From Branchiostoma floridae (taxonomy: Eukaryota > Chordata > Leptocardii > Amphioxiformes > Branchiostomatidae): a stretch of DNA of 64,000 nt. Both the position numbers and the translations under genes were made by a program. The stretch covers positions 4,615,893 to 4,679,892 of the forward strand of contig NC_049997.1 of assembly GCF_000003815.2 (NCBI RefSeq), in the 5' to 3' direction. Below the pieces are notes generated by a model that was not told the DNA's origin, made no database searches, and worked only from the letters and a program-made list of their open reading frames with translations. Shown here one piece after another: positions 29,801 to 52,650 of the stretch; position 1 is the stretch's first letter; each line of letters opens with the position of its first letter.

Positions 29801-32800
29801 TTTTTTCCAGATCCGTACTCATGGATGATGCAAAACATAGCTTTTTACATTAATAGTGTAAAGTATGATTTATCTGTAACCAAAGAACACACTGTATCTT
29901 CAGAAATGGACAGTCCAACTGAATTAGATGTTGTACAAAAGACAACCAGCACCATAACAATCTCATGGACACCACCTCAAGCTGTCCTTATCGCTTACAA
30001 CATAACCTACACAGAAAATGGAAGGAGTGCGTACATGATGACGTCAGGAGATGTTGACAGTTGTGAACTGACAGGTCTGGTACCTGGTACTCTGTATGAC
30101 ATAGACTTGGTGGCCGTTAGCAAGGTGGGGAGGAACATCGCCGTCAGTACTAGTGCTGTCACAGGTTAGTATTATTTTAATATTTTAATATTTTAATATT
30201 TTAATATTTTAATATTTTAATATTTTAATATTTTAATATTTTAATATTTTAATATTTTAATATTTTAATATTTTAATATTTTAATATTTTAATATTTTAA
30301 TATTTTAATATTTTAATATTTTAATATTTTAATATTTTAATATTTTAATATTTTAATATTTTAATATTTTAATATTTTAATATTTTAATATTTTAATATT
30401 TTAATATTTTAATATTTTAATATTTTAATATTTTAATATTTTAATATTTTAATATTTTAATATTCACTACACTGATGAAGCTATGGAACGACATACATTT
30501 GGCATATCTTTCCTCGCACATTACCGTCGACTTTGCCTGCTTTTAGCCAATTGCAATATATCTGTTGATGATGGATATACACTAAAATATTATTCTATCT
30601 TAAGACACAGCTCCACCTTCGAGTCTGAGAGTCACCAACTCCTCCACGACATCGTTGTTCCTAGAATGGACGCCACCTGCGGCAAACATTCTGTACTACA
30701 GCCTGGACATTTCAGACGAGCATAGCGGAGAGGTAGCATTGCTAAGGTAAAAAAAAAAGTTAAATGGACATACAAATAGTTTGCCATGAAGACATTATTA
30801 CTATGGACAGTACATGTAAGTTTAATGTGCATAGGAATGCTCTTTTTGTCTTTTTGTGATCAAGTTTGTTAATTTTTTTTTTCATTTTTTTTTAAATTTG
30901 GTAAGAGTTAATTATATGTTCTTCTTATCAAGTGAAATATGATCTGCAGTTTTGTTATAAGTATACGTTATACGTTAGCAGCATATCCTTTAGTATGCAT
31001 TGTTAGCATTGTTCTTTTGGAATGTTTGCACGATGTTTATTGCCTTAAATTACAAAGAATAATCTCATATACATTTCAAAATAAACTTTTTCATGATTTG
31101 TACATCAAACAAATGTTTACAATAAATGTCCATCTTTTTGTCACCTGTTTTCAATACAGGCTTGATGGACACAAAACGTCCTATTACGTCACAGGTCTTG
31201 TACCAGAAACTACATACGTCATCAAGATGGGGGCGTTCAGTGAGCATGGTCGTAGTGCGGACATCACTATTTCAAATAGTACAGGTATGGTGTTTGTTTT
31301 GGTAATAGGTCACTGTACAAAATAATTTTCTGAGCCAGGTTGCACAGTGTGGAACCTGGGGCAAAAAATAGGTTGCACAACTGAATTTCAAGTTGCACCA
31401 CCTACAATTCACTACAATTCTGAAAAAAAAGAGGTACAATGCATACATGTTTGGCTGATATGAAACGGAGCTGCCTCAGTCCATTTATTTCTTCCAAGTA
31501 AATTGACAACAAAATTGAGTTCTGAGGCTCAAAATCTAAGTTGCACCCTGTGCAGCCTGAGTTTAGAAGTAAGTTGCACCAAGCAAAAAGTGGTTGCAAT
31601 GTGCAAGTGTGCAAGTGGGTATTTTGCACTCTGGAGGTGCAGAGATACTGTGTATCATGTGAAGCATCTCAAGAGAATACCATACCTTTATGATACCTTA
31701 TCTAACAGGAAATAACAAAATAGCCGTGAGTCTAGCCTTGTTGTGCTTTTAGTCGCTCTTGGTATCGGCCCCTTCACACGAGAATGAACCGGAATTCCGT
31801 CAGAATGAAAATTATTTCCTATTCTTAGGAATTCGTAGTGTATTTAGACACTGCAATCCAGATATTTGTGCCAGTTCTTTTGGTTGGAAAGTTTCTGACA
31901 TGCTAAAAACTTTCGAGGTGAAGAAATATAGAATGGCATCTAACATGTATTCCAACTGCAGTATGACCGCATTCTACGGCATTTCAACATTATTCGACAC
32001 ATTCTGATTTCATTCGATGGAAAACCGAAACGGCAAGCCACTTCAAATCCTGCCAGAATGTGGCCAAAAGAATATCTGGAACGCAGTGAGAATGTCTAGA
32101 ATGCACTACAACTACCCAGGAATAGACAAACAATACTTATTCTGACGGCATTCCGGCTCATTCCTTCTCATGTGACGGGGATAGAAGGTCCATTTGGAAT
32201 TTTCACCCGAATGTGGCACGAATTTTGCACATTATTACATTATCCTGCTAATTCGGTTTCCGTGTGAAGGCCTTGTAAGCCCAATTTCGCCCTTTTTGTG
32301 TGCCTTTTAAAGGGCCTTCACACAAGGCTGGACTCCAGGCTAAGAAAAAAATACAGATAAACAGATTTTTACAGCTGATACAGATAAACATATATATTTA
32401 TTACCGGCTGATACAGATAGACAGATATAAATTTCCTATCTGGTACAGATACACAGACTAATAAATCCATCTTTTGGATCTTGTATACGGTATTCCCTGT
32501 ACCCTTGTTGGCTACTTTCCTGCATTTTATGATGGTGTTTATTTTCATTTGACACTTTCTTAATTCTTGTACGATAAAATTACCTCCTTCAAAAACTATC
32601 ACGTGAATAATCTGTCATTGAAGGGTCTTTGCCGACAGTCAAAGCCAGCACTGTTACCACTTCACACACAACGACGGAGGCGTCCACAACGGATAGAAGA
32701 ACAACTACTTCAATAACTACTTCTACTTTATGGACAACAACAGAGTCGCCAACAACGAAGAAAAGTACTGACTTTATGACAACACAAATGAGACTTTACT

Positions 32801-35800
32801 AGTTCATGCATACCTTATAGCACTATTATTGCGGTCTTGTTTGTCACACGTATAGAACGTACCAGCAAAACCTTATAGGGGACGCTAGCATACCTTTAGT
32901 GCAAATTATATGTCGTCGGAATAACAAGTCTTCTTTTATTGAATTGTTTCTGCAACTTTCTAAGCACATTATTGACCAAAACGTATTGGTAATTATAAAA
33001 AAACGTCGACATTTGAATTCTTAATGGGTTATTTTTTTTTACCATTTTTAGCAACCGAAGAGATAGAAAGAGACATAAAACCAGCCATGCCTGATTATGA
33101 TGAAGATACAACAAGCAGCCAAAGTACTACAGCATACTATAGTAAGATTCCTTTAAATCCTTCTCTAGCTTAGGGTGTGCATGTACTCTTTAATGCATGC
33201 GAATCCCTAATTTTCTAAAGGTATGTGTGACAGCTGAAGCTTCTGACAAACATACCTCAGGTTCCGAACATTAGGTCCAATAATTCAATAATTTGCGATA
33301 CTGACTTAGAATAAAGAATTTTAGTAATGTATTACCAGCAATGGATAGATTAGTTTTTTTTTCTATATTAACCATCCATGGTACGTAACCATATATCTTA
33401 TATATACTGGAATGTTTTTTATCGTTTACAGTAATGTCGACAGGAAAATCAACAAAGCCCCCTCTTATTGTGGAAACATCAAGTGCAGGTAAAAGTTTAT
33501 AGATGGGTCGGTATTTTCTACAGTAGATTTTCATATTACAGGCAGTATACTGGTTCACAAAAGCATATTCTTAGTTTCCTCGTTGATTTATGCAAAGTTT
33601 GAAACTATAAAGATAATACCTGAATCTGCGTTTCAGACAACGAGAAATCTACAACAACTCCCAAACGGACTACGGAAGATCCAGGTGAAAAGGTGGGACG
33701 TCTTTCGAACATTGATGCCGATTATATTTTCATATTTCTACTTAAACATCTGCGTCTAATGAAATTTCAATGTCTAAAGAAACATGAAAAATCTCCCACT
33801 TTTGCATGTGTCAGCGAAAATGTGTAAAAGTACTTCATTACTGATACTTCATTTCCTAGAATCCTTCAAAGTACTTCATTACTGATGCTTCATTTCCTGG
33901 AGTACTTCAACGTACTTCATTACTGATGCTTCATTTCCTGGAATCTTTCAAGTACTACATTACTGATGCATCATTTCCTGGAATTCTTCAAGGTACTACA
34001 TTACTCAAGCTTCAATTCCTGCAATCATTCAAAGTACTTCATTACTGATGCTTCATTTCCTGGAATCCGTCAAAGTACTTCATTACTGATGCTTTATTTC
34101 CTGGAATCCGTCAAAGTACTTCATTACCTATACTTCAATTCCTGAAATCATTCAAATTACTTCATTACTGATGCTTCATTTCCTGGAATCCTTCGACGTA
34201 CTATATTAATCATGCTTTAATTCCTGAAATCCTTCAAAGTACTACATTACTAATACTTCATTTCCTGGAATCCTTCAAAGTACCTCATTACTTATACTTC
34301 AATTCCTGAAATCATTCAAATTACTTCATTACTGATGCTTCATTTCCTGGAATCCTTCAAAGTACTGCATTACTCAAGCTTCAATTCCTGCAATCATTCA
34401 AAGTACTTCATTACTGATACTTCATTTCCTGGAATCCGTCAAAGTACTTCATTACTGATGCTTTATTTCCTGGAATCCGTCAAAGTACTTCATTACTGAT
34501 GCCTCATTTCCTGGAATCCTTCATAGCTCCAGCAGCTCGCACAAGGCCTAGAAGAGAGTTTGCCGGAAGTACTGGAACCTGAGGACATTCTTGCCGTGTC
34601 GTCCAACATTCAAGATATAATCAAACTCGGTGATACCTCTGAATCTGAAATGCCCCCATCAGTGTTGGTGAGCTTAGTTCTACTTTGTCTGGAGTTCTGA
34701 GTTTGAGTTGATCCACATTTAGCCTCAGAGTGCTCTGTAATTGTATGCACGGTGGTTAAAAAAACTCACTGTTTCTAAAGCGGAATTTACCATTATCCAT
34801 TTAAAGTAGAATATTATTTATAACTGTTCATTGTCACTTTTATATCTCCTATGTTTATACCATGTACTTGCAATTAGCCCTCGGGCATGAACTTGCAAAT
34901 AAATTTCTATTATCTTCATACTAGAACGTTACAATACATTACCAACTTGAAGGCATAATATGCATTTACATCGTAACTTTTCTGGACAGCAAACTACTGC
35001 AGGGATCATAGAGAAGCTTGCTTCTGCCGCTAAAGGATCGCAAGACATATCTGTAGAGAATGTGGAGACCATAGCCAATGGTGAGAATGTTTTCATGAAA
35101 ATAGCTGTATACAAGTGCTAAACATCGACTAAAGCTCCAAAGTAACCAATACACACATGTATTGGGTTTACCATGGCATGATTGTTTTTAGGCAATTGCC
35201 AATTGTAAAAACGTACGGTGATGCTTTACTTTACTTTGGTTTCGGTTTTACTCTGCTCTGCTCTGCTCTACTCTTTTCTACTCTGCTCTGCTCTACTCTA
35301 CGCTAATCTATTCTTCTCTACTCTGCTCTACTCTACTGTATGCTGTCTGCTGTACTCTACTTTACTCTACTCTACTCTTCTCTGCTCTGTTCCACTGCTC
35401 TGCTCTACTATTCTCTACTCTTCTCTACTCTGCTCTGCTCTACTCTACTCTACTCTACTCTACTCTACTCTATCTACTCTTGTCTACTCTACTCTACTCT
35501 ACTCTTCTCTGCTCTGCTCTGCTCTGCTCTACTCTACTCTAATCTACTCTACTCTACTCTACTCTTCTCTACTCTGCTCTACTCTGCTCTGCTCTGCTCT
35601 ACTCTACTCTACTCTACTCTACTCTACTCTACTCTGCTCTGCTCTGCTCTACTCTACTCTACTCTACTCTACTCTACTCTACTCTACTCTACTCTACTCT
35701 ACTCTTCTCTACTCTACTCTATCTACTCTTGTCTACTCTACTCCTCTGTTTTACCTTACTCTATCTTGCATCACTCTAATTCCCTCTACTCTACTCAACT

Positions 35801-38800
35801 CTACTTTAATCTACATTACTCTACTCAACTTTATTGCACTCTACTCAACTTTATTCTGCAACACCTTATTCGACTAAACTATTCTATAATCTACTGCATG
35901 CACTCTACTCTACGCATCACTCCATCTTTACGGTATCCACTAAGCTTGTGAAAATTCCCCAATGAAAACTAATTGCAGTTATTTCCAGTAAATGAGTTCG
36001 CTTTGAAGCTGGTTGTTTTTTCTCTTTGTTATTTAGCCGTGTTGCAGGCGGCTTCAGCAGTTATCGACGTGTTACCTAACCAGGAAACACAGACTGAAAG
36101 TTCCTCAGACAATATGTTAGAAAGTGATCTTATCGACACAAGTGCCACTGATCTTTCCCCAAGGCAACAGCTTAAGGAGTTGAAAAGGGAGGAGAAGGAG
36201 AAGGAAGACATGGTAATGACAGATGTCAAATCGTGTAATAAACATGAATTCCGATATTGTATTAAGCCATTGCACCAAATTATGTTTCCCGAAGGGGAAC
36301 ATCTTGTTTACATGTCTTTAGTTATTACAATATGTTCGGTAATTCAAACAACATTTTATTCTAACGTTTTATCTACTTCTTTCGAAACAAGGAACGAAAA
36401 GCGTCCCAGTCTATCGTGGCATCTTTGGACCAGGTTGCAGAAACTCTTCTGGCGTTACAGCCTGAGGATGCCGAGTATCACTCAAGCTTTAAAACTGAAA
36501 GTATCGCTGTTGATGTGGGGAGACTTCCTTCTGACAAAGATGTCCATCTTCACTCAGGAGATATTTTGGCAAATATTCCTTCCACAAATCAGTCTAAAAC
36601 AAACTCTATGCTGGATGTCAAGGTAAGAAAGACTCATCCAAGTCACAGTCAGTGCTTTCTGCCATTCTTGTAGTATCTACCAGAGTACTAACTGTTTAAC
36701 AAATGATGTTTGACATTTTATATCATCAGAATGAACAAATTGTTTTGTGTTTTACAGATGTCAGTTTTTAAGAAGAACCCGTATTCCTGGAGTAAGTCGA
36801 CTGGAGGACAAAACATCTCGTCATCAGTGACACTTCTGTCCATAAACTCAAAGGAGTCTGGAAACAGCACAAAGCAAGAAGTAAAGCTGGATATGCCATT
36901 CATACCGTTTCAAGCGAGTGGTAAGCAAGACAGCAGGCCATCAGACGATACGACAGAAAGCCCTAGTACGGAGGAAGATCCTACCAACGGCACTACTATG
37001 GCGTACCACGCCTTCGATGTTACAGCCGACAACGTCATCCCTGTTGTTAGTATGAACTGGTGGGATATAGAAGCTACATTTCACGTCTACATCTCTTACG
37101 GATATCCCCCGACAGAAGAAAAGTATGGCCAGAAAATAGTTATTAAGGAAGACGGGTATGAGGCCTGGCTCAGGGGAACAAATTTCTCTACATCCTTCAT
37201 TCCCAACACGACTGACCATAGCGGAGTTCTGTTTGTAGGAGTACAGAAGTTAGGTGCGTTGTTTATCTTCACAAATCATACGTTATCTTTTTTGTCCGTT
37301 TTTTCCACAATCGTAGCCACGTGAAGCCACGATAAGACCCTGGTATATATGTATAATTTTCAGAGCCGGTGAACTCAGCCCACGGTCATCAACAACAGCC
37401 TACTGTGCAGGCACTGAGAAAGAGGGACTACATACTGTCAATGCTATCTGTAGGCTGTTCGTCTTGGAAGGACAGTAAGAAACAATGGAGCCTGGAGTAC
37501 TGTGGCGTAAGTCAATCTAATTAACTTTATAAATTGTTGTAAATGTTCTTATACTAAACTAGTCCCTCGACCTCTGACCTGGCTGACACGGAACAAAGTA
37601 GAAAGTTGACTTAGTTGGCCAGTTGTTGCCAGGCGTTCAAATGAAGACCATAAAACTGCCCTAAGATAAAGTATTTTTTTTAGTCTTAGTCGTCACTTTT
37701 TTGCCTGCTCCTTATCAGATACTTGATGTACTATCTGTTGTCACCAGAGGGGTTAGCATGCATGTTGCAATTGCTTTCATACGAAGTACATCATTGAAAT
37801 AATCTAGCATATACGTTCAAGAACACATTGGAACAAGTTCTGTGAATGGCATCCTAAAAAAAAGACTGTAGAAGAAATTTGGAATTCACTTCATTAGCTA
37901 ATCATGTCATAATGTTTTTTCATTAACTCTTAAGTAGTTCCAGAAAAAGCTACCATGACAAAAGGAGAGATTACTTGAGGACGCAGGTATATTGTTTATA
38001 TTGTTAGCATTAGAAACGTAACAGAGATTTCTACCGCAAGTTTTTTCATCGTTTAACTTTGCTACCACATCAGGCTGACATTGATATGGACAATGGAGCC
38101 ATCAGCTGCCGATGTCACATGACTGAGGGGAAGGTCTCTGTGGGGACCATGACTCTTCCTCTTCCCAACTCCATCAACTTCATCAACGCTTTCAGGAACT
38201 TCCGCAATCTGAGCGAAAACTCAGTAGTGTTCTCCATCGTGGTGTCCGAGTACATCCTGTACATCTTACTCATGGTTTTCCTGTGCGTGGACTTTCACAG
38301 ACTATGGGTAAGCGTAAAGTTGATTGATCCTTAAACTTCAGAAGTTTAATGGTAACCGTGCTTTTCCCGTTGAAACGTCATCTTTCTCAAAACACTAAAC
38401 CAAGTCGTTCAAGGAATCAAAAATGTGACGAACAAATACACCAGATTGCCGCGATTGAACTTCCAGTTCATTTAGGGTTCATTTTGTTGCATCTTTTGAT
38501 TAATGTTAGTTTTGTTTATATTTATGGCGTTAAATAAAAGCAACTTCATGTAGATGACTACGTTATGGGTTTTTCATCTATCCTTAGAGTGCTCGTCGAA
38601 TAATCCCCATCTCTGGAGAGTGTGGAGGAGCGAACAGCAATGGGAAGCCTCTGTCCAAAGTGAGTCTGGTTCCTCCAGACAGGATGCCTGCACCACACGT
38701 CTATCAGATCACGGTCACCACCGGGTCCATGTTCAGCGCAGGGACCACGTCACGTGTCGGCTTCCAACTGTACGGGTCAGAGGGCACATCTCCAGTCAAG

Positions 38801-41800
38801 ATGCTGAACCCGGAAGGAGAGGTCGGTGTTGGTGATATGTGTAATCAGTGTTCAGAATTTTCTTTAACCGGAATATCTATATACCCATAATACTGAATTC
38901 CTACTTCAAAGACATTTATTTTTTTTTGTTCATGTTTAATTTGTTTCCAAAATAATGACCACCAAGAAATCATTGATGGTCTATTGCTTATGTGCCATAT
39001 CTACTCAACAGTACACACTAGTCAAATAGTCTTTTTTATGGTTGGCATATAAAGGCCAACAACAAAATACGTTTTTAGAATGGAAATATAGTTATCATTA
39101 CTTGGATATATAGTTGTCATTAGGCAACACAACCTTTAAGTTGCTTTGGTCCTCGTGTATATTAGTTGTGACATTGTAAGAATACAAATACAACAAGAGG
39201 GGGGGGCAATAGGAAAGTTAACGAAAAATGCTTTTTTCAGAATTTAGCAAAACAAAAGTATGAGAAAGTACAAAACAAGAGTGTTATAAGATAATCATAT
39301 CCAGCAAAAACATATGAAATAATCATATGCACAGAAACATTATGAAATAATATCAACAATCAGACTTTGAAATATTCATATGAAAATGAACACAAATGAA
39401 CTGAACAGGAACGTATGAAATAATTATAACAGAAACATATGAAATTAAATCATATCAAAGGAAATCTATGAAATAAAAAAATGCCTTTTTTTGTCATTTA
39501 CTGTTGGTAATTGCAGGCATTGGTGCGAGGAAGTACTTTGCACTTTGTCATGCCCGTACGAGAGTCACTTGGAGAAGTGATGTTGTTGCACATCTGGCAC
39601 GATAACTCTGGGGAAGGCGACAATTCATCGTGGTTCCTCGGAAGTTTTGTCGTCAGAGATGTAGAGAAGGATGTGGTGTAAGACGCAAAGGACATTTGCA
39701 AACCGATCTCTTTGTCCAAATTAATTCTGCCAGTTGTTTCTTTCCTACTCTGCAGCACTATGATACTCAATTTCGTCTCGTCTCGGCATGTGTGGTTTGG
39801 GAGAATGCAAAATGCCTTGCAAGATGGTCTCAATTAGCTCATTCCAATTTGAACAGGAACGCGAGTGAACTTGACTAAATGTTCATGAATAAAGACAATT
39901 GGCATGTTCGCTTTTTCATCTACTTCTTTATTGATATGACCGAATGATTGATATGTCTCCATGTCATAGGGAAATCTAGCATGATCGAAAACAAAACAAA
40001 AAATACAATTGTACTTAACTAAATCAACCCCTTTGGTTACTTTTCAGGTGTTACTTGACTTGTAACGACTGGTTATCAACAGAAAAGGGGGATGGCGAGG
40101 TGCAGAAGGTTGTTCACGCTAGCACCGAGGAGGAGCTGACATCCTTTACCAATGTCTTCATTGAGGCAACCAGAGATGTGTTCTACGATAAACAGCTGTG
40201 GGCGTCTGCCCTTGTAGCAACTCCGGGTCAGTATGGTTTTTATGAAATGTAGATATATAGACATATTTTAATGAAATGATAAAAAGAAATCAGCTCTCGC
40301 GTGCACGATTGCTCAATACATTTTGTAGTAAAACAGTTGCACAATTAAAAAGGTGACAAATAGTTTTTTTTTTTTTTACATTTTGCTCGGAGTAGGATCC
40401 AGCTTCACCAAAGCCCAGCGTCTGTCCTGCTGCTTTACCCTCCTGAACACCATGATGCTGGCCAGTGCCATGTGGTACAGGCAAGAAAACACAACTGCTG
40501 ACACAAGGGTGTTCAACCTGGGTTTCGTCCGGTTCACCATACAGGTAATGTTCATCACTTAATCGTTCGTTACTGTGAACCATCGTCATCAAAGGTGATT
40601 ATGTCATCATAATTAAGTACCTTGTTGTAGATTTATCAAACGTTGTTGTAGATTAAATAAAATCAATTGATAAACAAAAGTATTAATTCACTATGTGTGT
40701 CTATCATTATCCAAATGTTTACCGGAGCTGTACCTTAGTCTCATGACTGCTCTGACCGTACTTCCCGTGANNNNNNNNNNNNNNNNNNNNNNNNNNNNNN
40801 NNNNNNNNNNNNNNNNNNNNNNNNNNNNNNNNNNNNNNNNNNNNNNNNNNNNNNNNNNNNNNNNNNNNNNCAAAATTGTAGTTTAGATGTGGGAATCTCT
40901 CGTGCATTATGTATGCCCTTGATGTCATTTTAATTACTAGGATGTTAAGTTTTACTCTATACAACTATTTTTTTTGATTTGGGTAATTAGTTGTTGCCAT
41001 ACTTTGATCCATGTACAATTGTCGTGCAATAAAGTTCTTTTCTTTTTAGGGATGTCTCATAAACGATTGTATGTGCCAGAATACTAGTATGTGATCTTAC
41101 CTAAAGAATATCCAGACTTGTCTAATGTACAACATTAGGTCATTAAATAAAAGCCTTGTGACTTGTTTAAGATTGACATTTATCTGTAGTACAGTAGAAG
41201 CCAGTTAATTGCACACCGGATAATCGCACACTTCTGTTAATTGCACGAAATCCCAAATCCCATGGTGGTGCGGTCCAGCTGTATAACTTCGCTTTGTTGC
41301 ACCATTCGGATAATTGCACGAAATATACTGGCAAATGGGGTGTGCAATTAAGCGGCTTCCACCGTATCATAAGTTTTCAATCATTTATGTTGAACCTCAG
41401 GATATTTTCGGAAATGTGTCTTCCGCGTGGCCAAGTACGTGGCGTGGTTGACCGTGTTCCTGGTGTCCACCAGCTCCGCGTTCTTCGTCATCCTGTACAG
41501 TATGGACTGGGGCAAGGAGAAGAGCGACTCCTGGATGAAGGCCTTTATAATGTCCTTCATGGGTTCCAGCTGTGTGGTGGACACTCTTCAGGTGACGTGA
41601 CTTATAGTTATATCTCACTGCACTAGGGGCACCGTTGTGGCACTGCGGGGTTTGTTCACTGCGGCACTAGTACTGTTGTGTTATTTTCGCCGATTTTTTT
41701 TATAATGCAACAAAATACAAAAAAAAACGTTAGAAAATTAGTTCTTTATCTCTAAAAGTCGTAGCGTATCCTTCGAACCCTGCAGTGCCGCACCGATTAC

Positions 41801-44800: not shown

Positions 44801-47800
44801 ACAGATACTAAAGTCGTAGAATGATGAAGTAAATTTAGATATATCAGAGAGGAAAATGCAACTACCACTAACGAAGAATCTGTTGTTCGTCATACCAAAT
44901 CAACATGGCCTTACTGGACATTTCCAATGACCACTAAAATCTAGTACATATATTAACAATATCATATGTTATTCCATGCAGATGCCATGGCACGGAATGC
45001 TATTCATGACCTCGGCTGGAACTTGGACTTGGGGAATGTTTCTGGTAACTGCTGGCGATTCGAGGTTAAGGACTTGTTAGCTCGTACAAACGACACCTTC
45101 CACTGCAAGAATCACCACTCGTTTGACGTGCCTTTAGGCCATGACTCCGCCGTGTCATTCTTTGGCATCTTGAGACAAAACGAGTTTATCGACAAGTACA
45201 CAAAATCCGTGACAATCTCAGTAAACGTCTACAATCCCAGCCGTAAGCTGTTCAGCACTGTGAAAATGGTCATAGACCGTTCTGGAGTCGGGCATCTCGT
45301 GCCAACGGCAACAATCGCTTCATTCAGACTGTTTCAGTACGAAAGTGATACTGACTTTGTGACCTTGTTCATGCACATTTTATTTGCATTGCTGTTCTTC
45401 CTTATGCTATATAACGAAATCAAAGCAATGAGAAACATGGGATGGAAATGCTTCACTTGTAAATGGAACGCCCTCGGTTGCGTTAGCCTCATCGGCACAG
45501 CAACAGCCATCTCCATCTTTATCAAGCGGTATGTGGTGGCATCTGAAACACTCGGAATCGTCGCTGGAAGTAAAGGTACGTCCGCCATGTCGCTACTTAT
45601 TTGATAAGATTATTGTTTTTGTTTTTTTTTACGAATGCAAACAAGACGCCTTTAACCCGCATTATTATATAGCCAGGCGCCGCTGACCAATCAGAAGGCC
45701 GCCAATTCCATGTTGGTTATGACGCTGTAACACATAGATTCCGTCCAGCCCGGTGTGTATCGTTTCTTCTGATTGGTCAGAAGTTGCATCGACACACAGC
45801 TTCGCTCACTCGGTGGTTTTATTCGGTGGTTATAGCAAAGGCCCAGGCGTTATGACACCATATACACCTCAGGGCGGATCATTAACCCTGCCCTTAATTG
45901 AAGACAATTTTTTGGTATAATACACAATCATCCATATGACACAATGCTTTACTTTTCTTTTATCGACCAGGTGAGATGGGATTTGGGCGCTTTGTTGACC
46001 TGCAAATTGCTGCATATTGGGATGATTGTTTGAAGCACATCTTGGGTCTTGTAGTCTTCATCAACACCGTGTCCTTACTTCGCGTCGTCCGCTTTAGTCA
46101 AACGATCGGCAAACTCCTGGCCCTGCCCGGTATCATGAAGGGAGAGCTGATGTCTTTCTTGGTTGTTGCTGCCGTAGCCTTTACGGCCTTCGTAAGTTCA
46201 GGTAAGTACTACAAAATCATAGCGTAGTGTATTGTAACTTTGGTGCATTGTACAATACTCGATGCTGACAACTTATTTGTCCATTGCTGGTTTCAGGACA
46301 TCTCATATTTGGCAGCCAAATGGCATCTTATACAGACCTGCAACACACAACTTTGGCACTGTTCGAGATGATGCTCGGCAGGTTAGTTTTACAAAGCAGT
46401 GTGTAATGATCTTAAATGTGAACCATAAAGTATCGTATGGCGCAATCGGTGAGGTGTTTGACCCAGACCCAAGAGGTAACGGGTTCGAAACCGCTGATTT
46501 GTCCCGATGTTGTGTCCTTGGATAAGGCACTTTACACGGCTTTCCTCGCTTCACTAAAGTGAAAATGAGTACCTAGCTAGGCTTCCTTGAATAGGACGTT
46601 AAATGGAGGTCCCGTATTTGAGAAGAGCCACACCTCGAGCAGTTATAGAACCCACCTCACTTATCGAAAAGAGTAGGGGTCCTTCCCGGTGTGAGTGGTT
46701 CAATCCTACAGTCTTATGGTTGCACTTGGGGCAATTACTGTCGTATTAAGGTCACCTGTGTGGCGCCGTATGGCAGCTCGCTCCAGACATAGCCCCGCAT
46801 AATGCAAGCTCCTTGCAATTCAGCCCCTGGTTGTCAAGAGAGAGTAGTCGGCGCACCCTGTACCCAATAACATTATGTTTTAGCAAGTAGTCAAGAACGT
46901 TATCTCATTGCTTGTTGTTATGACTCTAGATTCTTCGCCGAAGACATGTTGGATTCCAATCCTCTGATCGGGCCGATCTTCTTCTCCACCTTCATGATCT
47001 GCATCTTCATCCTCCTGGTGAACTTCCTCATGACCATCATCTGTGACGCCATTTCCGCTGACGTTGACGTCAACCATGACCGTGAACTTGCCGATCACAT
47101 GTGGAGGAGCTTCTGGGCTATGCTGGGGTTTCACAGCACACCGGATAAGGAGGATAAACCAGGTAAATCAAGCAAAAGTACATGAGTAGTTATTACATCG
47201 CCTTTCTGTCTCCGACATTAATACAACTATGTGGATACACTAAAAGATAAACGGAACAAGACAACCGGTGTAATGGTTAATTTGCTGTTCAACATTGTAT
47301 AGCATATAATGCTACTAAATATGCTTCGCGAATAAATATTTATATTTCTGTTATGGTTGGGCAGTAATTATGTTCAAATGATAATAAAATCAACGGTTTT
47401 TAATGTTTTCTTTTGTTTTGTTTGTGAAGATGTTTTGAAGATGGAAGAGGTGAAGGCAAAAATATGCATCATTCGGAAGAAGCTAGATGAAGGTCTGGAC
47501 ATTTGCAACTCCATCCTGCCTCCACATCGACAGGAAAAACACCCGAAGAGCCAAGACGTGCCCAGCTTCTTGCACCTTGACCCTTGTAACACGTCTTGCC
47601 AAATCATTCGCGAAGAACGTAAGTTAGCAACGATTGTCGAAGAAAATCAAGATACCACCAAAGGCATGGAGGTCGCTCGACCACCAGTTGATGCTAACGT
47701 AAATACAGCGGATGTAAGGATGCGGACCAAGCGAATTGAGGGCATCATTTCAAGGGTAGATCGCGTTACAGCCAAACACAGTGATCAGAAGGTGCCTCGG

Positions 47801-48526
47801 CCTATTCTGGTTGCAACAGCTCCACGTGAGAAGCAAACTCTGACATCTGCCACACATGCTGGTGAACGGCTGCAGCAATCTTCACGGAACATGTGGATCC
47901 CCGATCTAAAGCTTACCACTGAAGACAAGGCTGTACTCCTTTGTGATGAGATGCTGACAGACAAACACATCCATGCCGCACAGATGTTACTCCGCCGTCA
48001 GTATCCAGGGCTGGGAGGACTACAAGATACGGCAGTAGGAGCGTCCGTGTACGGATATACACGGGTCTCCGGAGACGGTCTACAGATTCACCACACCGGA
48101 TCCCTCCACTGGGTGGTTTCATCCTCCATAGGTGGACATGTCAGCCTTTATAACAGCATGCCCGGTAAATTAAATGCATCGCTGGAGTATCAGTTGTGTC
48201 AGTGTTACGCGCCACCCCCCAACATGGGCACAGGCGTACTGACTGTGAAAGTACCATGTGTACAGCAGCAGGATAGCAGGTATAGCTGCGGACTGTTTGG
48301 CATAGCCTGGGCTGTAGACATCGCGATGGGGACGGATGTGACTCAGGTCAGGTACAAGGAGAGCAGGATGAGAGTCCATCTCCGGGACTGCTTCGAACGC
48401 GGTCACCTGTCTCCCTTCCCACAGTCCCTTTCTTTCACCAGTCTGCGACCCAGTACCGTTCACCGGATTACTCTAACTTCAGCCGCTACCGGTAAACATG
48501 CCGATTCAAAAAGCCTGCAGGACTGA
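13347..48526 (+). CDS. Polycystin-1-like receptor/channel with lectin ectodomain and C-terminal Ulp1-like domain
   Basis: Giant gene of about 44 coding exons, detailed in the entries below. Polycystin-1 family proteins are cleaved 11-TM adhesion receptors that pair with TRPP channels. Order: fucolectin domain; FN3 x4; F5/8C; pentraxin; F5/8C; FN3 x5; Ser/Thr stalk; GAIN-like region and GPS; TM1; PLAT; channel region; helical tail; Ulp1-like domain. Every exon-exon junction I could place is phase-compatible from the first lectin exon to the stop at 48524-48526, which is the main argument for one gene. Only the exon running into the gap at 40771 is incomplete. Translation may start at ATG 13347 (MTVLMTVLSPVVG, a weak signal-peptide-like start), or at an upstream exon lost near the first gap. 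Closest in layout to PKD1L2/PKD1L3-type proteins, but no orthology is claimed. It could be two adjacent genes if the stalk exons are misread. Confidence 0.75.
13675..14045. repeat. Long hairpin with (TA)n and (GA)n inside the lectin intron
   Basis: The left arm (about 13680-13763, 'cccccaagttttcaacca', 'gcgtaaatcgttcaaatt', 'ctgcataatgagca') is the reverse complement of 13868-13945. The loop is a (TA)n microsatellite at 13767-13820. A second (TA)n/(GA)n block at 13957-14026 is flanked by another inverted pair ('catttgttttccaata' / 'attggaaaacaaatg'). This is a foldback-type element expanded by microsatellites. Confidence 0.8.
15001..15225 (+). mobile_element. tRNA-derived SINE
   Basis: A tRNA-like head with an A-box-like 'tggcgtaatcgg' (about 15011) and a B-box-like 'gggtttgaatcc' (about 15060), then a non-tRNA body ('aaaggcactttacacgac', 'aaatgagtatctagct'). 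The same body words follow the head at 46434-46620. It is not a functional tRNA gene: the anticodon arm does not fold well and the acceptor stem is poor. It sits in the intron after the lectin exons. Confidence 0.75.
15601..16270 (+). CDS. FN3 domains 1-2
   Basis: Exons 15601-15873 and 15998-16270, each 273 bp and each one complete fibronectin type III domain with phase-1 ends, the usual shuffling-ready form. Domain 1: 'ETDPPLSLTCSTAT', 'ITISWIKPSAPLSGYRVNY', ending 'VGVTCLT'. Domain 2: 'TPPPEEFQVTYVTETSVTVSW' in part, with 'LTPGTEYVISASSIN'. Both carry the core Trp and the Tyr of the FN3 'tyrosine corner'. This pair is repeated at 19328-20000 and 28352-29630. Confidence 0.9.
16420..16680. 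other. GC-rich island in intron, unassigned
   Basis: A GC-rich block ('cccgccggccctcgaacc', 'ccgcgcagcatgccgtcc') in otherwise AT-rich intron, 400-700 bases upstream of the second 0.94-kb repeat. It looks like an inserted element of unknown type. No coding or RNA family is recognised. Confidence 0.35.
17096..18028 (+). repeat. About 0.94-kb dispersed repeat, copy 2
   Basis: Direct-orientation near-copy of 11762-12706, in the intron between FN3 domains 2 and 3. It retains the start 'tacacggaacaaattcttc' and the end 'gtcattaattatgcaa'. It is followed at once by a member of the 'cttgagttatc' repeat family (18030-18530). Confidence 0.85.
18030..18530 (-). repeat. Interspersed repeat of the 'ataactcaagaacgg' family with (AC)n
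   Basis: Contains 'ccgttcttgagttatc', 'gggggcccaaaatctaat' and an (AC)n run at about 18411-18460, ending near 'ccatgacatttcatgg'. Related sequences in the opposite orientation occur at 27134-28190 and 58619-59940, and in this orientation at 63030-63320. No ORF; probably a non-autonomous element. Confidence 0.65.
19328..20000 (+). CDS. FN3 domains 3-4 (duplicate of domains 1-2)
   Basis: Exons 19328-19600 and 19728-20000, 273 bp each with phase-1 ends. Nearly the same protein as FN3 1-2, with changes such as 'SPSEVTTTEF' for 'SPSNVTTTEF' and 'TSINRNYEGP' for 'SSINRQNEGP'. The intron between the two exons is also similar to the 15874-15997 intron ('tacatgtgctgtcccttt'), so the pair was copied as genomic DNA. 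Confidence 0.9.
20251..20310 (+). pseudogene. Decayed exon related to the FN3 exon at 29811
   Basis: After 'tgcaacgtctttttcag' the sequence reads 'tttataacccatggatgatg' then 'caaaacgaattc'. This matches the start of the exon at 29811 ('tactcatggatgatgcaaaa') together with its preceding intron end. Read in the expected phase it hits a stop within about 20 codons (near 20312). It is the remnant of a third exon that once followed the FN3 pair in the duplicated unit, and is now skipped. Confidence 0.6.
20557..21645 (+). CDS. F5/8C (discoidin) domain 1
   Basis: Exons 20557-20717, 21015-21164 and 21501-21645 (phases 1, 0, 0, 1). The domain runs from 'ACNNRFGMESGDIPDESI' through 'RARLNGGYGQFW', 'PWLQVYLGG', 'VKSYKLQYSADGIGW' and 'FPGNTNAGTPVTN' to 'ARYVRFYPQSS' and 'MRVEILGC'. 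This is the standard discoidin order with the two terminal Cys. In other proteins this fold binds glycans, collagen or phospholipid on the cell surface; the ligand here is unknown. Confidence 0.9.
21916..23140 (+). CDS. Pentraxin/LamG-like domain
   Basis: Exons 21916-22130 and 22735-23140 (phase 1, 0, 1). Features: 'LIFPTPRHTGNYARL' at the start, 'SSYTLCLRVRTDM', 'DLWHSLCVTWRGNNGSW' with 'LYADGEL' and 'WILGQDQDTVGGGF' (the pentraxin GQDQD calcium-site loop), then 'FSGELSHVNLWDRVLSP' and a closing Cys. The two conserved Cys (CLR and CVTW) form the pentraxin disulfide. The GQDQD and 'FSGELSHVNLWD' motifs suggest calcium binding is retained. Confidence 0.9.
22300..22460 (+). repeat. Short GAGCAACCTCCA inverted/direct repeat cluster
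   Basis: The words 'acgagcaacctccatgca' and 'acgagcaacctccacaaa' and their complements ('atggggttgctcctgc', 'atggacgttgctcgtac') alternate over about 150 bp, making two nested hairpins in the pentraxin intron. Unknown element type. Confidence 0.5.
23609..25161 (+). CDS. F5/8C (discoidin) domain 2
   Basis: Exons 23609-23919 and 25017-25161 (phases 1, 0, 1). The translation has 'CTSPVALGMESGAIADDHI', 'AYEGRLNNGWSW', 'QWLQIDLGSQKVLTSI', 'GGYTVKSYKLLYSDYG', then 'RYVRINPQSS' and 'MRLRVELLGC'. This is a typical discoidin domain, different enough from domain 1 to be an old duplicate. The intron between them (23920-25016) has TGACGTCA-rich sequence but no gene. Confidence 0.9.
25192..25430 (+). mobile_element. 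5S rRNA-derived SINE (SINE3-type)
   Basis: 25197-25310 resembles eukaryotic 5S rRNA: 'cccgatccctgatatcgg', 'aagttaagcaacg' (box A region), 'agtacttggatgg' (box C region) and 'gaccgggttgttgtagcc'. It is followed by a body with 'aaaacggggatcccgtg' and 'gaggtgcctcga' that resembles the downstream body of the tRNA-headed SINE at about 46597-46640. It starts about 30 bases after the donor at 25161. It is diverged from 5S and lacks a terminator context, so it is not a functional 5S gene. Confidence 0.75.
25652..26064. mobile_element. Foldback/MITE element with long terminal inverted repeats
   Basis: 413 bp. The left end 'aacaggcgacagtataattc' and right end 'aattatactgtcgcctgtt' are inverted repeats that continue inward through 'ttccggaaaacctt', 'taaaccagatgaa' and 'gtaggtatgatatatcaaag'. 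Only a short spacer with 'ctgcagaattctgcgaattc' sits in the middle. 'gata' flanks both sides (25648-25651 and 26065-26068), a possible 4-bp target duplication. It carries no transposase. Confidence 0.8.
26837..27121 (+). CDS. FN3 domain 5
   Basis: A single 285-bp exon, phase 1 both ends. Reads 'IPQFPAENVTCSSETTSS', 'FSLHWLYPSGYLSGYRIWY', 'GLKSGCRYNVTVRNVV'. This is an FN3 fold with several NxS/T sequons, less similar to the others than domains 1-4 are to each other. Its donor is followed within about 15 bases by an interspersed repeat. Confidence 0.85.
27134..28190 (+). repeat. Interspersed repeat of the 'ataactcaagaacgg' family
   Basis: Opens near 'ccatgaaatgtcatggaggt' and 'gtctgtctgtttgttaacag', then 'gataactcaagaacggctga', and ends near 'gaggtcgccgaactctagtt'. 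Internal part rich in 'tatgcaaatgagg' and 'gatttgcataat'. Same family as 18030-18530 (reverse) and 58619-59940. Non-coding. Confidence 0.65.
28352..29630 (+). CDS. FN3 domains 6-7 (third copy of the FN3 pair)
   Basis: Exons 28352-28624 and 29358-29630, again 273 bp each and phase 1. The first matches FN3 1 and 3 ('ETDPPLSLTCSTATS'), the second matches FN3 2 and 4 ('TPPPEDFQVTYGTETSVTV'). The second is the most diverged of its set ('LALHHRVWIRRSDTAESLF'). The intron between them has grown to 733 bp by repeat insertion. Confidence 0.9.
29811..30164 (+). CDS. FN3 domain 8 with N-terminal linker
   Basis: A 354-bp exon, phase 1 both ends. About 40 residues of linker ('PYSWMMQNIAFYINSV') precede an FN3 domain: 'SPTELDVVQKTTSTITISW', 'YNITYTENGRSA', 'LTGLVPGTLYDIDLVAVSK'. 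The linker part is what survives as the decayed exon at 20251. The donor is followed directly by the 9-bp repeat array. Confidence 0.85.
30172..30464. repeat. Perfect 9-bp tandem array (TTTTAATAT)n
   Basis: About 32 copies of 'ttttaatat' without visible interruption, pure A/T, starting 8 bases after the donor of FN3 domain 8. The purity suggests recent expansion. Confidence 0.95.
30611..31284 (+). CDS. FN3 domain 9 (split over two exons)
   Basis: Exons 30611-30746 and 31160-31284 (phases 1, 2, 1). First half: 'PPSSLRVTNSSTTSLFLEW', 'TPPAANILYYSLDI'. Second half: 'YYVTGLVPETTYVIKMGAFS'. Together they make one FN3 domain with an intron between the C and F strands. It is the only FN3 in this gene with an internal intron. 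Confidence 0.8.
31325..31640 (-). repeat. Dispersed repeat with TTGCAAC motifs (copy 2, inverted)
   Basis: Reverse-complement counterpart of 1410-1720, in the intron after FN3 domain 9. Not coding. Confidence 0.6.
31768..32270. mobile_element. Inverted-repeat element 'GGCCCCTTCACACGAGAA'
   Basis: The left end 'ggccccttcacacgagaa' pairs with 'tttccgtgtgaaggcc' near 32253-32270. Inner inverted matches are 'gaaccggaattccgtcagaa' with 'attctgacggcattccggct' (about 32138). Non-autonomous; no transposase seen. The superfamily is uncertain (hAT-like ends are possible) and no clear target duplication was found. Confidence 0.6.
32639..33692 (+). CDS. Ser/Thr-rich mucin-like stalk exons
   Basis: Exons 32639-32764 (or from 32624), 33052-33141, 33432-33488 and 33637-33692, phases 1, 1, 1, 1, 0. 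They encode a low-complexity Thr/Ser/Pro segment ('STVTTSHTTTEASTTDRR', 'STTTPKRTTEDPGEK'), a likely O-glycosylated spacer between the adhesive domains and the membrane-proximal region. The small exons are supported mainly by phase and composition, so individual boundaries are moderate in confidence. Confidence 0.65.
33831..34526. repeat. 41-bp minisatellite
   Basis: About 17 copies of a 41-bp unit ('tacttcattactgatgcttc', 'atttcctggaatccttcaaa' and variants) filling the intron between 33692 and 34533. It runs right up to the next exon, so the acceptor there (34526 or 34532) lies at the array's edge. Confidence 0.95.
34533..37253 (+). CDS. GAIN-like juxtamembrane region exons
   Basis: Exons 34533-34667, 34990-35080, 36037-36212, 36392-36622 and 36758-37253 (phases 0, 0, 1, 0, 0, 1). 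The start is an amphipathic helical segment ('IIEKLASAAKGSQDI', 'LQAASAVIDVLPNQE', 'QSIVASLDQVAETLLAL'), then beta-rich sequence with 'MAYHAFDVTADNVIPVVSMN' and 'TFHVYISYGYPPTEEKYG'. This pattern precedes the GPS in PKD1-family and adhesion-GPCR proteins (the GAIN fold). No REJ domain is evident. The first acceptor is ambiguous because of the adjoining minisatellite. Confidence 0.75.
35250..35760. repeat. Pentanucleotide array (TACTC)n
   Basis: Over 500 bp of 'tactc' units with 'tgctc' and 'ttctc' variants in the intron 35081-36036, decaying to about 35900. Long open frames over it (Leu/Tyr/Ser repeats) are artefacts. Confidence 0.95.
37364..38307 (+). CDS. GPS proteolysis motif and first transmembrane helix
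   Basis: Exons 37364-37506 and 38074-38307 (phases 1, 0, 0). The GPS motif is split by the intron: 'SSWKDSKKQWSLEYCG' before, and 'GAISCRCHMTEG' after. The four Cys/Trp framework is present and the cleavage triad reads His-Met-Thr instead of the common His-Leu-Thr/Ser, still compatible with autoproteolysis. TM1 follows ('VSEYILYILLMVFLCVDF'). Confidence 0.85.
38588..40226 (+). CDS. PLAT (LH2) domain
   Basis: Exons 38588-38821, 39517-39677 and 40048-40226 (phases 0, 0, 2, 1). PLAT lies in the first cytosolic loop of all polycystin-1 proteins and binds phospholipid and trafficking partners. Seen: 'YQITVTTGSMFSAGTTSR', 'VGFQLYGSEG', 'LHIWHDNSGEG', 'SSWFLGSFVVRDVE', then 'TCNDWLSTEKGDGEV', the standard PLAT order and ending. 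The donor at 39677 is GGT|GTAAGA. Confidence 0.9.
40396..40770 (+). CDS. Polycystin TM2-TM3 region, truncated by gap
   Basis: Exon 40396-40544 encodes 'SSFTKAQRLSCCFTLLNTMM' and 'SAMWYRQE', the near-invariant PKD1-family TM2 start. A following exon begins at 40728 (phase 0) and reads 'LYLSLMTALTVLPV' before running into N at 40771. The rest of that exon, and perhaps more of the cytosolic loop, is missing. The next visible exon needs an incoming phase of 1. Confidence 0.8.
40771..40870. other. Assembly gap (100 N) inside a coding exon
   Basis: A placeholder-sized gap that cuts an exon of the polycystin-like gene. No more coding sequence is recognisable between 40871 and 41400. Confidence 0.95.
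41192..41364. mobile_element. TA-flanked MITE (Tc1/mariner-pogo type)
   Basis: The left end 'cagtagaagccagttaattg' pairs with the right end 'caattaagcggcttccaccg' as inverted repeats, with TA on both sides (41190-41191, 41365-41366). About 173 bp, no coding capacity. It lies 36 bases upstream of the exon acceptor at 41400. Confidence 0.7.
41401..42649 (+). CDS. Polycystin TM4-TM5 exons
   Basis: Exons 41401-41591 and 42541-42649 (phases 1, 0, 1). The first reads 'YVAWLTVFLVSTSSAFFVIL' then 'YSMDWGKEKSDSWMKAF', a strongly conserved PKD1-family block (short tight loop with WGKEKS). The second is a helix, 'IFVLAVVMASIFSLQFLAK'. Confidence 0.9.
41613..41815. mobile_element. TA-flanked MITE, second family
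   Basis: The left end 'tctcactgcactaggggc' pairs with the right end 'cccaagtgcagtgaga'; inner inverted matches are 'gtggcactgcggggttt' with 'aaccctgcagtgccgca'. TA at 41611-41612 and 41816-41817. It starts about 20 bases after the donor at 41591. Confidence 0.7.
42732..43119. mobile_element. hAT-like non-autonomous element
   Basis: Terminal inverted repeats 'cagggttctccccagaa' and 'ctggggagaaccctg' bound 388 bp, with subterminal 'agtatagtggaggggct' and 'agtatagtggagggcct'. CAGGGTTC-type ends are typical of hAT elements. An 8-bp target duplication is not obvious. No ORF. Confidence 0.65.
43624..45575 (+). CDS. TM6 and extracellular TOP (polycystin) domain, TM7-TM8
   Basis: Exons 43624-43835, 44415-44589 and 44982-45575 (phases 1, 0, 1, 1). 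A basic segment then 'EFLLLFIFVVLLFYIAQ' (TM6, equal to S1 of the channel unit). The TOP domain includes 'LLWTLYPATWYNG' and 'SFRLGPPRLTQVR', both family hallmarks, then 'NPSRKLFSTVKMVIDRSG'. S2 follows ('LFMHILFALLFFLMLYNEI') with another helix at 'ALGCVSLIGTATAISIFI'. Confidence 0.9.
45971..47162 (+). CDS. Polycystin channel S4-S6 with pore exon
   Basis: Exons 45971-46201, 46297-46381 and 46930-47162 (phases 1, 1, 2, 1). S4 region: 'VSLLRVVRFSQTIGKLLAL'. S5 ends 'AVAFTAFVSSGHLIFGSQ'. Pore: 'LALFEMMLGRFFAEDM'. S6: 'IFFSTFMICIFILLVNFLM' and 'TIICDAI'. Where PKD2-type channels have LGD at the selectivity filter, this has LGR, so calcium permeability like PKD2 is doubtful and it may act as a non-PKD2-like partner subunit, as PKD1 does. 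Confidence 0.9.
46434..46740 (+). mobile_element. tRNA-derived SINE between pore and S6 exons
   Basis: The tRNA-like head has 'tggcgcaatcgg' (A box) and 'gggttcgaaacc' (B box), then 'aaggcactttacacggct', 'aatgagtacctagct', 'aggacgttaaatggaggt' and 'cccacctcacttatcg'. Same family as 15001-15225. It lies wholly within the 46382-46929 intron, so it should not disturb the protein. Confidence 0.75.
47430..48526 (+). CDS. Last exon: helical tail fused to Ulp1-like (C48) protease domain
   Basis: Acceptor at 47429 (tttgtgaag), phase 1, matching the S6 exon. A 1,097-bp uninterrupted exon to TGA 48524-48526, about 365 residues. Residues 1-35: charged helix ('MEEVKAKICIIRKKLDEG'), as at the end of polycystin channels. 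Residues 36-150: polar linker. From about 155: 'IPDLKLTTEDKAVLL', 'LTDKHIHAAQMLLRRQYPG', 'SLHWVVSSS', 'HVSLYNSMPG', 'QQQDSRYSCGLFGIAWA', 'MRVHLRDCFERGHLSPFP', the order of the Ulp1/SENP-like fold found in many uncharacterised and mobile-element-associated invertebrate proteins. Catalytic His codon at 48107-48109 and Cys codon at 48287-48289 are present, with the oxyanion Gln before the Cys. The usual Asp is Asn (48152-48154). I infer a fusion. The alternative is an independent retro-inserted gene read as an exon, but the frame runs straight through and there is no internal stop. Confidence 0.7.
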
Positions 48527-50778: not shown

Positions 50779-52150
50779 CAGACCGTCAACAAAAGTCGCA
50801 CGGCGGCTAACGGCGCATCGAAGATACTAGCGCTATAAATAAGTGCTTCAACTAAGGATGGCAACCCGTACAATATTTTTGCATACTGTTGAGCTAAGTA
50901 AAGTTTGTTGTTTATGAGGTTTTAGTTGTCTTTGAAGCTTTGACCCGAAATATTTTAAAGTCAAACTGCTGAAGAGAAGTAAGTGACTGCTACGATTATC
51001 GTAGATATGGCCCTAAAAAAACTGATAAAAGAAGCCTTCTCAATAGTCTAAAATGCAAGAGCTTCCGGGGGGGCTTCGCCCACCTGGGTCCCCCCCACAG
51101 TGGCCCTGCCCCTGGACCCCGCCAGGGACATTCGGCGGCCCCGGACCCCTGTCCGACGCTTTGAAAAAATCCTGGCGAGAAGTCTGTACGGCCTGAGTCT
51201 TCAAGTTAACGTATTGTGTGGTCCCGCTTATGAATATTAATTAGCCTTCGCTTTCCTCTTCGCTGATTGGCTGAACCATTAATTGAATTAACTCTTCCTG
51301 CCGGCTAGACGCAGGTGCAGATGTCGGCTCTGTGGGGTGAACGTCCGAAAGGTCATGGCATGCATGGAGAACGAAAGAAAACCAATTTCCCCTAAAAAAA
51401 GTGCTGTAATTAAGCCTTTTACAGTACTTTATGCCAAAAATTTTACTTGGATCATTTTACCAACTATCTTATGCCTATCTATACCAAATGTTACTCATAC
51501 CAGGGTACAGGGGTGCAAAATATACCGTTATAAGACCGTCAACAACAGTCGCACGGAGCTAACAGCGCAGCGAAAATACCATCGCTAGCGTTTCAACTTC
51601 GGATAACAAGTTATAAGTACTGTTGAACTCAGTAACGTTAAAGTTTGTTTTTAGTTGCCTTTGACGATTTGACCTGAAATAGTGTTACGCTAAACTCCTG
51701 AAGAGAAGTTAAGTGACTGCTGCGATTATCATAGATATGCCCCTAAGAACTTATACAATATAAAGCCTTCTGAATAGTGTAAAATGCGAGAGCCTTAGGC
51801 GGGCTTCGCTCCCCCTGGCGGGAACACTGCTATATACGGGATCATGAGGCCCCGCTTATGAATATTAATTAGCCTTTGGCCTCCTCTTCGCTGATTGGCT
51901 AGGTCTTTGATTCAATTAACTCTCCGGCTGGCGCGCACAGGTGTGGCTCTGTGCGGGGTCACGGAAGGTCACGTCAGGAGGCCAAAAGAAAACACATTTC
52001 CCCTCAGAAAAGTTCCAAAATTAATCATTTTAAGGTTGTTTATGTCAAAAATTTTACTTGAATCTTGTTACCAAGTATCTAATGCCTATCTATACCAAAT
52101 TTCAGGTCATTTAATTGTAATACCAGGGTACAGGAGCCAAAAGTGTCCTT
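50779..52150 (+). repeat. Tandemly duplicated 0.6-0.75-kb unit
   Basis: 50779-51520 and 51532-52150 share the same order of words: 'gaccgtcaacaa.agtcgcac', 'gctgaagagaagtaagtg', 'cttatgaatattaattagcc', 'cctcttcgctgattggct', 'tgcctatctataccaaat' and 'ataccagggtacagg'. The first copy has a 130-bp C/G-rich insertion (about 51070-51190). No protein is recognised. Confidence 0.75.
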
Positions 52151-52650
52151 TTTTGGTCAAAAATTGGCCAAAAATCGCAAAAATAAGCATTTTGTTGCAC
52201 TGTACACCAAAAGTGTTATTGAATTTATATGAAGGTATTATCAAGGCACATCTGTGTCAAATTTCAGCTCATTCAGTTGCAATACCAAGGTACAGGAGCC
52301 AAAAGTGTCCTTTTTTGGTCAAAAATTGGTCAAAAAATCGCAAAAATAAGCATTTTGTTGTACTGTACACCAAAAGTGTTATTGAATTTATATGGGGGCA
52401 TTATCAAGGCACATCTCTGTCAAATTTCAGCTCATTTGGTTGTAATACCAGGGTACAGGGGCCAAAAGTGTCCTTTTTTGGTCAAAAATTGGTCAAAAAA
52501 TCGCAAAAATAAGCATTTTGTTGTACTGTACACCAAAAGTGTTATCGAATTTATATGGGGGCATTATCAAGGCACATCTCTGTCAAATTTCAGCTCATTT
52601 GGTTGTAATACCAGGGTACAGGGGCCAAAATATACAGTTTTGGTCTAAAA
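52121..52650 (+). repeat. 163-bp satellite-like tandem repeat
   Basis: A unit of about 163 bp containing 'taccagggtacaggagcc', 'aaaagtgtccttttttggtc', 'aaaaataagcattttgttg' and 'aaatttcagctcattt'. Copies begin near 52121, 52283, 52446 and 52609. It follows straight on from the 3' end of the larger duplicated unit. Because 163 is not a multiple of three, the long open frames across it shift between copies and are not genes. Confidence 0.9.

Follow-up and report, generated by a model that had tools for sequence, protein, structure and literature searches.

A Ulp1/SENP-like domain, probably of MULE/MuDR-type transposase origin, in frame with polycystin-1-like channels of Branchiostoma floridae

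Polycystin receptor-channels are related to PKD1, the human protein implicated in kidney disease. The vertebrate polycystin-1 tails are cleaved, and pieces of 17–34 kDa are reported in the nucleus and in mitochondria, according to the available portion of PMC10063565. A PKD1L2 gene adjoins a receptor gene in amphioxus, as an extract of PMC10199209 has it. Among mobile elements, the accessible part of PMC2836005 describes lancelet Mutator elements that carry Ulp1, and one hydra Ginger1 that carries both Ulp1 and a PHD. There is, in addition, a dispute over the many new domain combinations of lancelets, which the excerpts at hand present either as real (PMC4284660) or as prediction errors (PMC4967905, PMC6071037); the excerpt of PMC6071037 cites a B. 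belcheri fusion of chordin with PKD_channel that had been mispredicted. The present case bears on this dispute, as a single exon of the window gene encodes both sides of the fusion and numerous paralogues show the join again; with the join inside one exon, the kind of prediction error behind chordin-PKD_channel is avoided. The sequence-only reading that preceded this work knew of no described polycystin with a SUMO/ubiquitin-like protease fold. We found no description of a polycystin with a Ulp1-like domain among the open-licence papers listed for polycystins with Ulp1 and for amphioxus/lancelet polycystins and PKD1 relatives, and none of the words polycystin, PKD and Ulp1 occurs in the main text of PMC12062965, PMC4967905 or PMC4284660.

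The window, by which we mean the whole 64,000-nt stretch of Branchiostoma floridae DNA that was analysed, sits on contig C19 of the 513 Mb assembly. The matches to the polycystin domain, the PKD channel, PLAT and fn3 mark its gene as polycystin-like (Table 1), and it is most likely of the polycystin-1 type. The combination of polycystin domain and PKD channel that characterizes the polycystin-1 family was found both in the window gene and in the distant paralogue L014 (1.6e-26 and 2.6e-12, respectively, with PLAT sub-threshold at E 0.0089). PLAT appears in the window as two sub-threshold pieces, at 38.7 and 39.5 kb, which are consecutive along the profile. No GPS match was obtained at E ≤ 0.01 in the three frames of 30.5–46.5 kb, which were scanned unjoined, so that a split domain could escape. 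Elsewhere in the window, near-identical open frames at 15513–15938, 19156–19656 and 28306–28686 (SETDPPLSLTCSTAT...ITISWIKP) resemble repeated fibronectin III-type exons, and a Pentaxin/laminin G-like frame (Pfam Pentaxin 1.9e-24) lies upstream on the same strand at 22615–23226. A long simple repeat with two open frames occupies 35209–35951, and open frames with an internal repeat (QKCPFLVKNW...), probably a tandem repeat, occupy 51895–52648.

Table 1. Features of the polycystin-like gene in the window
Feature	Position	Strand	Evidence or remark
Fibronectin type III domain (part), upstream extracellular region	30613..30771	+	Pfam fn3 E 1.6e-4, 22.3 bits; cut-off 25, so sub-threshold
PLAT domain, first part (profile 1-40)	38702..38812	+	Pfam PLAT E 0.0018 for the frame; sub-threshold, no single stretch passes
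PLAT domain, second part (profile 40-88)	39508..39663	+	Pfam PLAT E 0.005, sub-threshold
Open frame with Polycystin_dom and start of PKD_channel	44957..45601	+	E 2.2e-7 and 5e-5, both over cut-off; exon ends unmapped
Exon of channel segment S6, phase-1 end	46930..47162	+	74 own-genome matches at E ≤ 10
Intron GTAAAT...GAAG	47163..47429	+	L010 has the same kind of splice points; tail-only L029-L031 have the phase-1 tail acceptor
Polycystin tail helix	47430..47536	+	Common to tail-only polycystins: 57% over 28 residues (L030), 64% over 33 (L031), 37% over 73 (L029)
Linker, weakly conserved	47537..47875	+	50% with L010, dN/dS 0.87
Ulp1/SENP-like domain, MULE-transposase type	47876..48484	+	First codon bases: His 48107, Asn 48152, Gln 48269, Cys 48287
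C-terminus and stop	48485..48526	+	PHD-like finger of paralogues missing (alignment)

The join itself can be read directly from the window. The S6 exon has the donor CCAG/GTAAAT in phase 1 at 47162, and the exon at 47430–48526 is preceded by ...TGTGAAG, completes a codon GAT (Asp) and stays open for 365 residues to its stop. The splice sites and the GAT codon bear out the phase match between 47162 and 47430 that had been put forward, and the stop-free run then claimed through the domain indeed extends to the stop ending at 48526. Tail helix and Ulp1-like domain form a single unbroken frame in this exon, with no intron between them. The codons of His (48107–48109), Gln (48269–48271) and Cys (48287–48289) were found at the places and in the order given by the sequence-only reading; the third catalytic position is Asn (48152–48154), which is Asp in relatives.

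To place this exon, the B. floridae genome was searched with the exon protein and the 58 matching rows were sorted into classes: 32 rows represent 30 domain-family loci, 10 represent nine TE-like loci, seven are tail-only, five are short domain fragments and four are weak. The same 30 domain loci were recovered with L014 as the query. Three of them constitute the window clade, namely the window, L009 (94–96% identical, inverted, 208 kb away) and L010 (a full-length paralogue, 74% over residues 1–358), and the 27 distant loci are 45–52% identical to the window protein over the domain only. A full-length paralogue at 74% and 27 further loci in the same genome argue that the make-up of the window exon is not due to chance. 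The DNA of L009 (C19:4870500–4880499) is 98% identical to the window from S6 to past the domain, and a one-base deletion in its linker shifts the frame ahead of the domain; either the copy is broken or the assembly is in error there.

A same-strand S6 exon lies within about 2.5 kb upstream in 27 of the 30 domain loci (window clade 3/3, distant 24/27), where about 0.005 S6-domain pairs would be expected by chance (30 loci × 74 matches × 2.5 kb, scattered evenly along the two strands of 513 Mb). The loci with no S6 upstream are C2:33001938 (L028, whose region contains 5,160 N), C2:32083497 and C12:11893309 (split in two frames); at C12:17113188 (L018), the S6 exon was seen on closer examination of the locus. 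None of the nine TE-like loci (C7, C17, C15, C10, C8, C1, C4, C9:5.2 Mb and C311) has one of the 74 S6 matches upstream. Conversely, many S6 matches in the genome have no Ulp1-like domain nearby. The tail-only loci L029–L031 (C3, C9 and C18), with S6 exons 67–84% identical to that of the window, carry a related tail with no Ulp1-like domain and stop 70–78 residues into the tail exon, about halfway along the window stretch that leads to the domain. These exons agree with the earlier assignment of the window tail as a polycystin-type helix.

Exon joins, PHD-like finger and catalytic residues were examined in 23 of the 27 distant loci. A separate short tail exon stands between the S6 and domain exons in 20 of the 23, and the splice chain runs from the phase-1 end of S6 through the tail exon (in phase 1, out phase 2) to the Ulp1 exon in phase 2. 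In-frame spliced models were built for 17 of the 23, including L025, whose model stops inside the domain. L010, like the window, has no intron between tail and domain, and its frame is open throughout. The reading frame continues without a stop into a PHD-like finger in 19 of the 23 loci, its end not being reached in L012, L015, L016 and L025; Pfam PHD matches are sub-threshold (2.3e-4 in L014, 0.0044 in L026, 0.013 in L022 and 0.53 in L017). By alignment, the finger is missing from the window clade. In three polycystin paralogues at C19:6.43–6.70 Mb (L022–L024), Ser (NDSG) replaces the Cys, with the remaining domain and the PHD-like finger kept. Partial domain-end and PHD-like copies were also observed ~0.45–1.5 kb downstream of five fused loci (C9:2487883, C13:18712591, C13:20068470, C13:21161155 and C12:17112311); they look like a tandem duplication of the end of the last exon, and a similar fragment stands at C16:18892527. 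The linkers of L011, L012, L013, L014 and L020 hold a conserved RRVRF before the domain, with variants in L016, L018 and L019; the stretch resembles RVxF, a docking motif of protein phosphatase 1.

The kinship of the domain was pursued with profiles. When fused and TE-like sequences were pooled into a 15-member profile, SENP1 was matched at 1.4e-6, the four catalytic residues (His, Asp, Gln and Cys) falling into register, and Peptidase_C48 is matched by 11 of these 15 members (best 5.2e-10), the window member giving no such match. Built from 13 fused members only, the profile gives weak matches to 6ups (0.052), OtDUB (0.088) and SENP1 (0.37), 6ups being a ULP_PROTEASE-domain protein. As the SENP1 match is strong only with the TE-like members included, the Ulp1 link runs partly via these members. 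Pfam and PDB searches with the window exon or domain alone gave nothing useful; in particular, Peptidase_C48, to which the sequence-only reading had looked for confirmation, is absent from the two weak Pfam matches of the window exon at E ≤ 10. AlphaFold2 gave a pLDDT of 33.6 for the window domain alone, and a scan of viral contigs with the domain alignment found no relative.

Within the genome, the nearest other relatives are MULE-type transposases with SWIM, Ulp1 and PHD parts, and the window domain is 35–38% identical to the TE-like loci L032–L034. In the TE-like loci on C17 and C15 (L033 and L034), the domain lies in one frame with SWIM and PHD (Pfam). Upstream on C17 are matches to ALS2CR8 (2.8e-12), ZSWIM RNaseH-like (1.4e-12) and MULE (2.1e-5, just sub-threshold), and the C17 element is a MULE-type transposase. 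The domain stretches of the TE-like loci on C10, C8 and C1 are identical or almost so, which fits a mobile element. In those fused exons that were scanned, Pfam returned neither a SWIM nor a transposase part. A domain of transposase kin stands, in the window-type genes, in frame with a host domain, and we read these genes as a putative host-transposase fusion on a receptor-channel. The in-frame polycystin/Ulp1-like fusion itself, as claimed earlier, is supported by the shared frame in the window and L010, by the paralogous loci with their upstream S6 exons, in-frame models and low dN/dS, and by the family profile matches, and on these grounds it is very probably real. The earlier claim did not mention the kinship with transposases, how large the family is, the PHD-like finger seen in the paralogues or the Asp-to-Asn change; a deconjugase role is inferred, as the sequence-only reading also had it.

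Our preferred explanation, to which we give a probability of roughly two in three, is that the domain is a C-terminal cytosolic module of polycystin-1-like proteins, captured from a MULE/MuDR-type transposase, of which it formed the Ulp1(-PHD) end. The direction of capture would have been from the transposase to the polycystin, and splicing as modelled would join S6, tail and domain. It could be argued instead that there are two neighbouring genes, the Ulp1(-PHD) exon being an independent gene or an alternative transcript duplicated along with the polycystins. An own start is indeed at hand: an ATG follows directly after 18 of the 19 mapped Ulp1-exon acceptors, which makes a separate start possible in the paralogues, and the window has an ATG at 47441. 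Furthermore, the tail donor is AG/GCGAGT in nine of the 20 tail-exon loci, so that fusion there needs a GC-AG intron, and annotated lancelet domain fusions are often prediction errors, as far as the available parts of PMC4967905 and PMC6071037 go. The start is not general, however, since L021 has GAG in place of the ATG and the tail of L010 has Ile at the window Met that might serve as a separate start. In the window and in L010, moreover, tail helix and domain share an open frame and no intron is needed, and five loci (L011, L012, L014, L015 and L020) keep the tail donor GT though the third intron base abolishes the tail-ending TAA. We consider two separate genes highly improbable.

The other alternatives concern what the captured domain is for, if anything, and on these the catalytic residues and the substitution rates bear. 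All four residues (H-D-Q-C) are present in 16 of the 23 distant domains and in 7/7 TE-like rows. The window clade has H-N-Q-C in 3/3, and the His-Asp-Gln-Cys set of Ulp1/SENP is hence not found there; in addition, the catalytic Cys is Ser in L022–L024, and the catalytic Gln is Tyr in L025, L028, L044 and L045, the last also with Leu for His. Such changes would suit a pseudoenzyme, in which the captured module serves to bind or scaffold SUMO/ubiquitin-like proteins or a partner and is not a protease, and the residue-changed pairs do stay below a dN/dS of 1 (L023–L024 0.36; L028–L045 0.45). On the other hand, the full set is kept in 16 of the 23, and the available part of PMC9866604 gives Asn187 as the third residue, beside His168 and Cys232, of ASFV pS273R, a related protease from a virus, though one place prints Asp187. 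We regard a pseudoenzyme as less likely than not. The residue counts make activity a likely prediction for many members; most H-D-Q-C paralogues are, somewhat more probably than otherwise, catalytic, and for the window copy catalysis is uncertain and somewhat less probable than not. Transposon debris, neutrally exonised, would agree with the MULE kinship, with the shifted frame of L009 and with the stop within the domain of L025. For the family, we rejected it on the dN/dS of the Ulp1 domain, 0.29 (95% 0.24–0.37; 1511 codon pairs) over eight hand-chosen paralogue pairs (16 of the 23 distant loci) presumed independent on the tree; the same position and order at 27 of the 30 loci also tell against it, and we consider it very improbable. 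The domain of the family is under purifying selection. Over the same eight pairs, the PHD-like part has a dN/dS of 0.46 (95% 0.28–0.73; 338 codon pairs). Between the window and L010, the values are 0.64 (0.44–0.86) for the whole exon, 0.44 (95% 0.22–1.03) for the domain and 0.87 (0.56–1.52) for the linker; dS amounts to 0.115 in the domain against 0.364 in the linker, and gene conversion may thus contribute. The domain of the window against that of L009 gives 0.74, at a dS of only 0.03.

Returning to the captured module, we asked how it came to the window lineage. The S6 tree (35 rows, 78 columns) places the window clade in a group of 12 with nine polycystins that have no domain match nearby. 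In the domain tree (33 rows), for which the program warned that long branches meet, the window clade and 23 family rows are set against seven TE-like rows with support 99/98. Within the family, channel and domain diverge to a similar degree, with slopes of 0.92 (S6) and 0.79 (polycystin domain), whereas between the lineages the channel is 3.2 times (S6) and 2.4 times (polycystin domain) as diverged as the Ulp1-like domain. In the longer channel alignment, all 48 between-lineage pairs (1.87–2.65) exceed the within-family maximum of 1.26, which comes from the 73 of 120 pairs with a domain distance above 0.3. JC-corrected dN shows no such contrast, the S6-to-domain ratio being ~1.6 between lineages vs ~1.1–1.7 among distant family members, probably due to saturation. 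An ancestral fusion with later losses was weighed as well: the S6 tree, from an alignment of only 78 columns, needs four changes, at least three by the starred branches. The divergence contrast together with the S6 tree leads us to prefer a separate joining or transfer over an ancestral fusion. The domain therefore probably came to the window lineage once the channels were already separate, and as the route we favour, from these comparisons, either transfer between paralogues or another capture out of the same pool of transposons.

As for function, the domain would work beneath the channel as a SUMO- or ubiquitin-like deconjugase, some members perhaps being binders only. Given that the tails of vertebrate polycystin-1 are cleaved, gating or cleavage could position or release the domain, and the piece released from the PHD-bearing paralogues would be a chromatin-reading protease. 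By analogy with the vertebrate tails, a nuclear relay by the released tail may be entertained, and we think it unlikely. Having lost the PHD and carrying Asn in its triad, the window clade more likely yields an enzyme that is local, weaker or altered, or else a binder. One might go further and imagine a lancelet signalling class in which an adhesion or mechanical signal frees a polycystin tail, made of a transposase-derived SUMO/ubiquitin-like protease with a PHD chromatin reader, as a chromatin-directed deconjugase, the module having been joined at least twice, which would suggest a useful pairing; we would note that this is a speculative and decidedly unlikely extension. In any case, the family offers a concrete, family-wide case of the protease end of a transposon becoming part of a receptor-channel, which could tie a membrane sensor to protein (de)modification. 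It also raises whether polycystin tails carry enzymes, and why a SUMO/ubiquitin-type protease should sit under a PKD1-like channel.

Compared with the described systems, the amphioxus genes share with the polycystin-1 family (PKD1, PKD1L1-3) the Polycystin_dom and PKD_channel and a cytosolic tail helix after S6, PLAT being sub-threshold here, but they add the Ulp1-like domain and, in the paralogues, also the PHD-like finger. With Ulp1/SENP (Peptidase_C48) they have in common the order H-(D/N)-Q-C and, once TE-like members are included, a strong profile match; the relationship is nevertheless remote, the window domain alone having no C48 match and Asn in place of Asp. The order of Ulp1 and then PHD is that of MULE/MuDR transposases with Ulp1 (lancelet, hydra and plants) and of Ginger1, from which the fused exons scanned differ in having no Pfam SWIM or transposase part and in carrying the domain on a membrane channel. 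Finally, host-transposase fusions such as SETMAR, CSB-PGBD3 and KRABINER likewise have a transposase domain joined to a host protein; in the available portion of PMC12062965 these are DNA-binding regulators of gene expression, whereas here it is the protease/PHD end that is placed on a receptor-channel.
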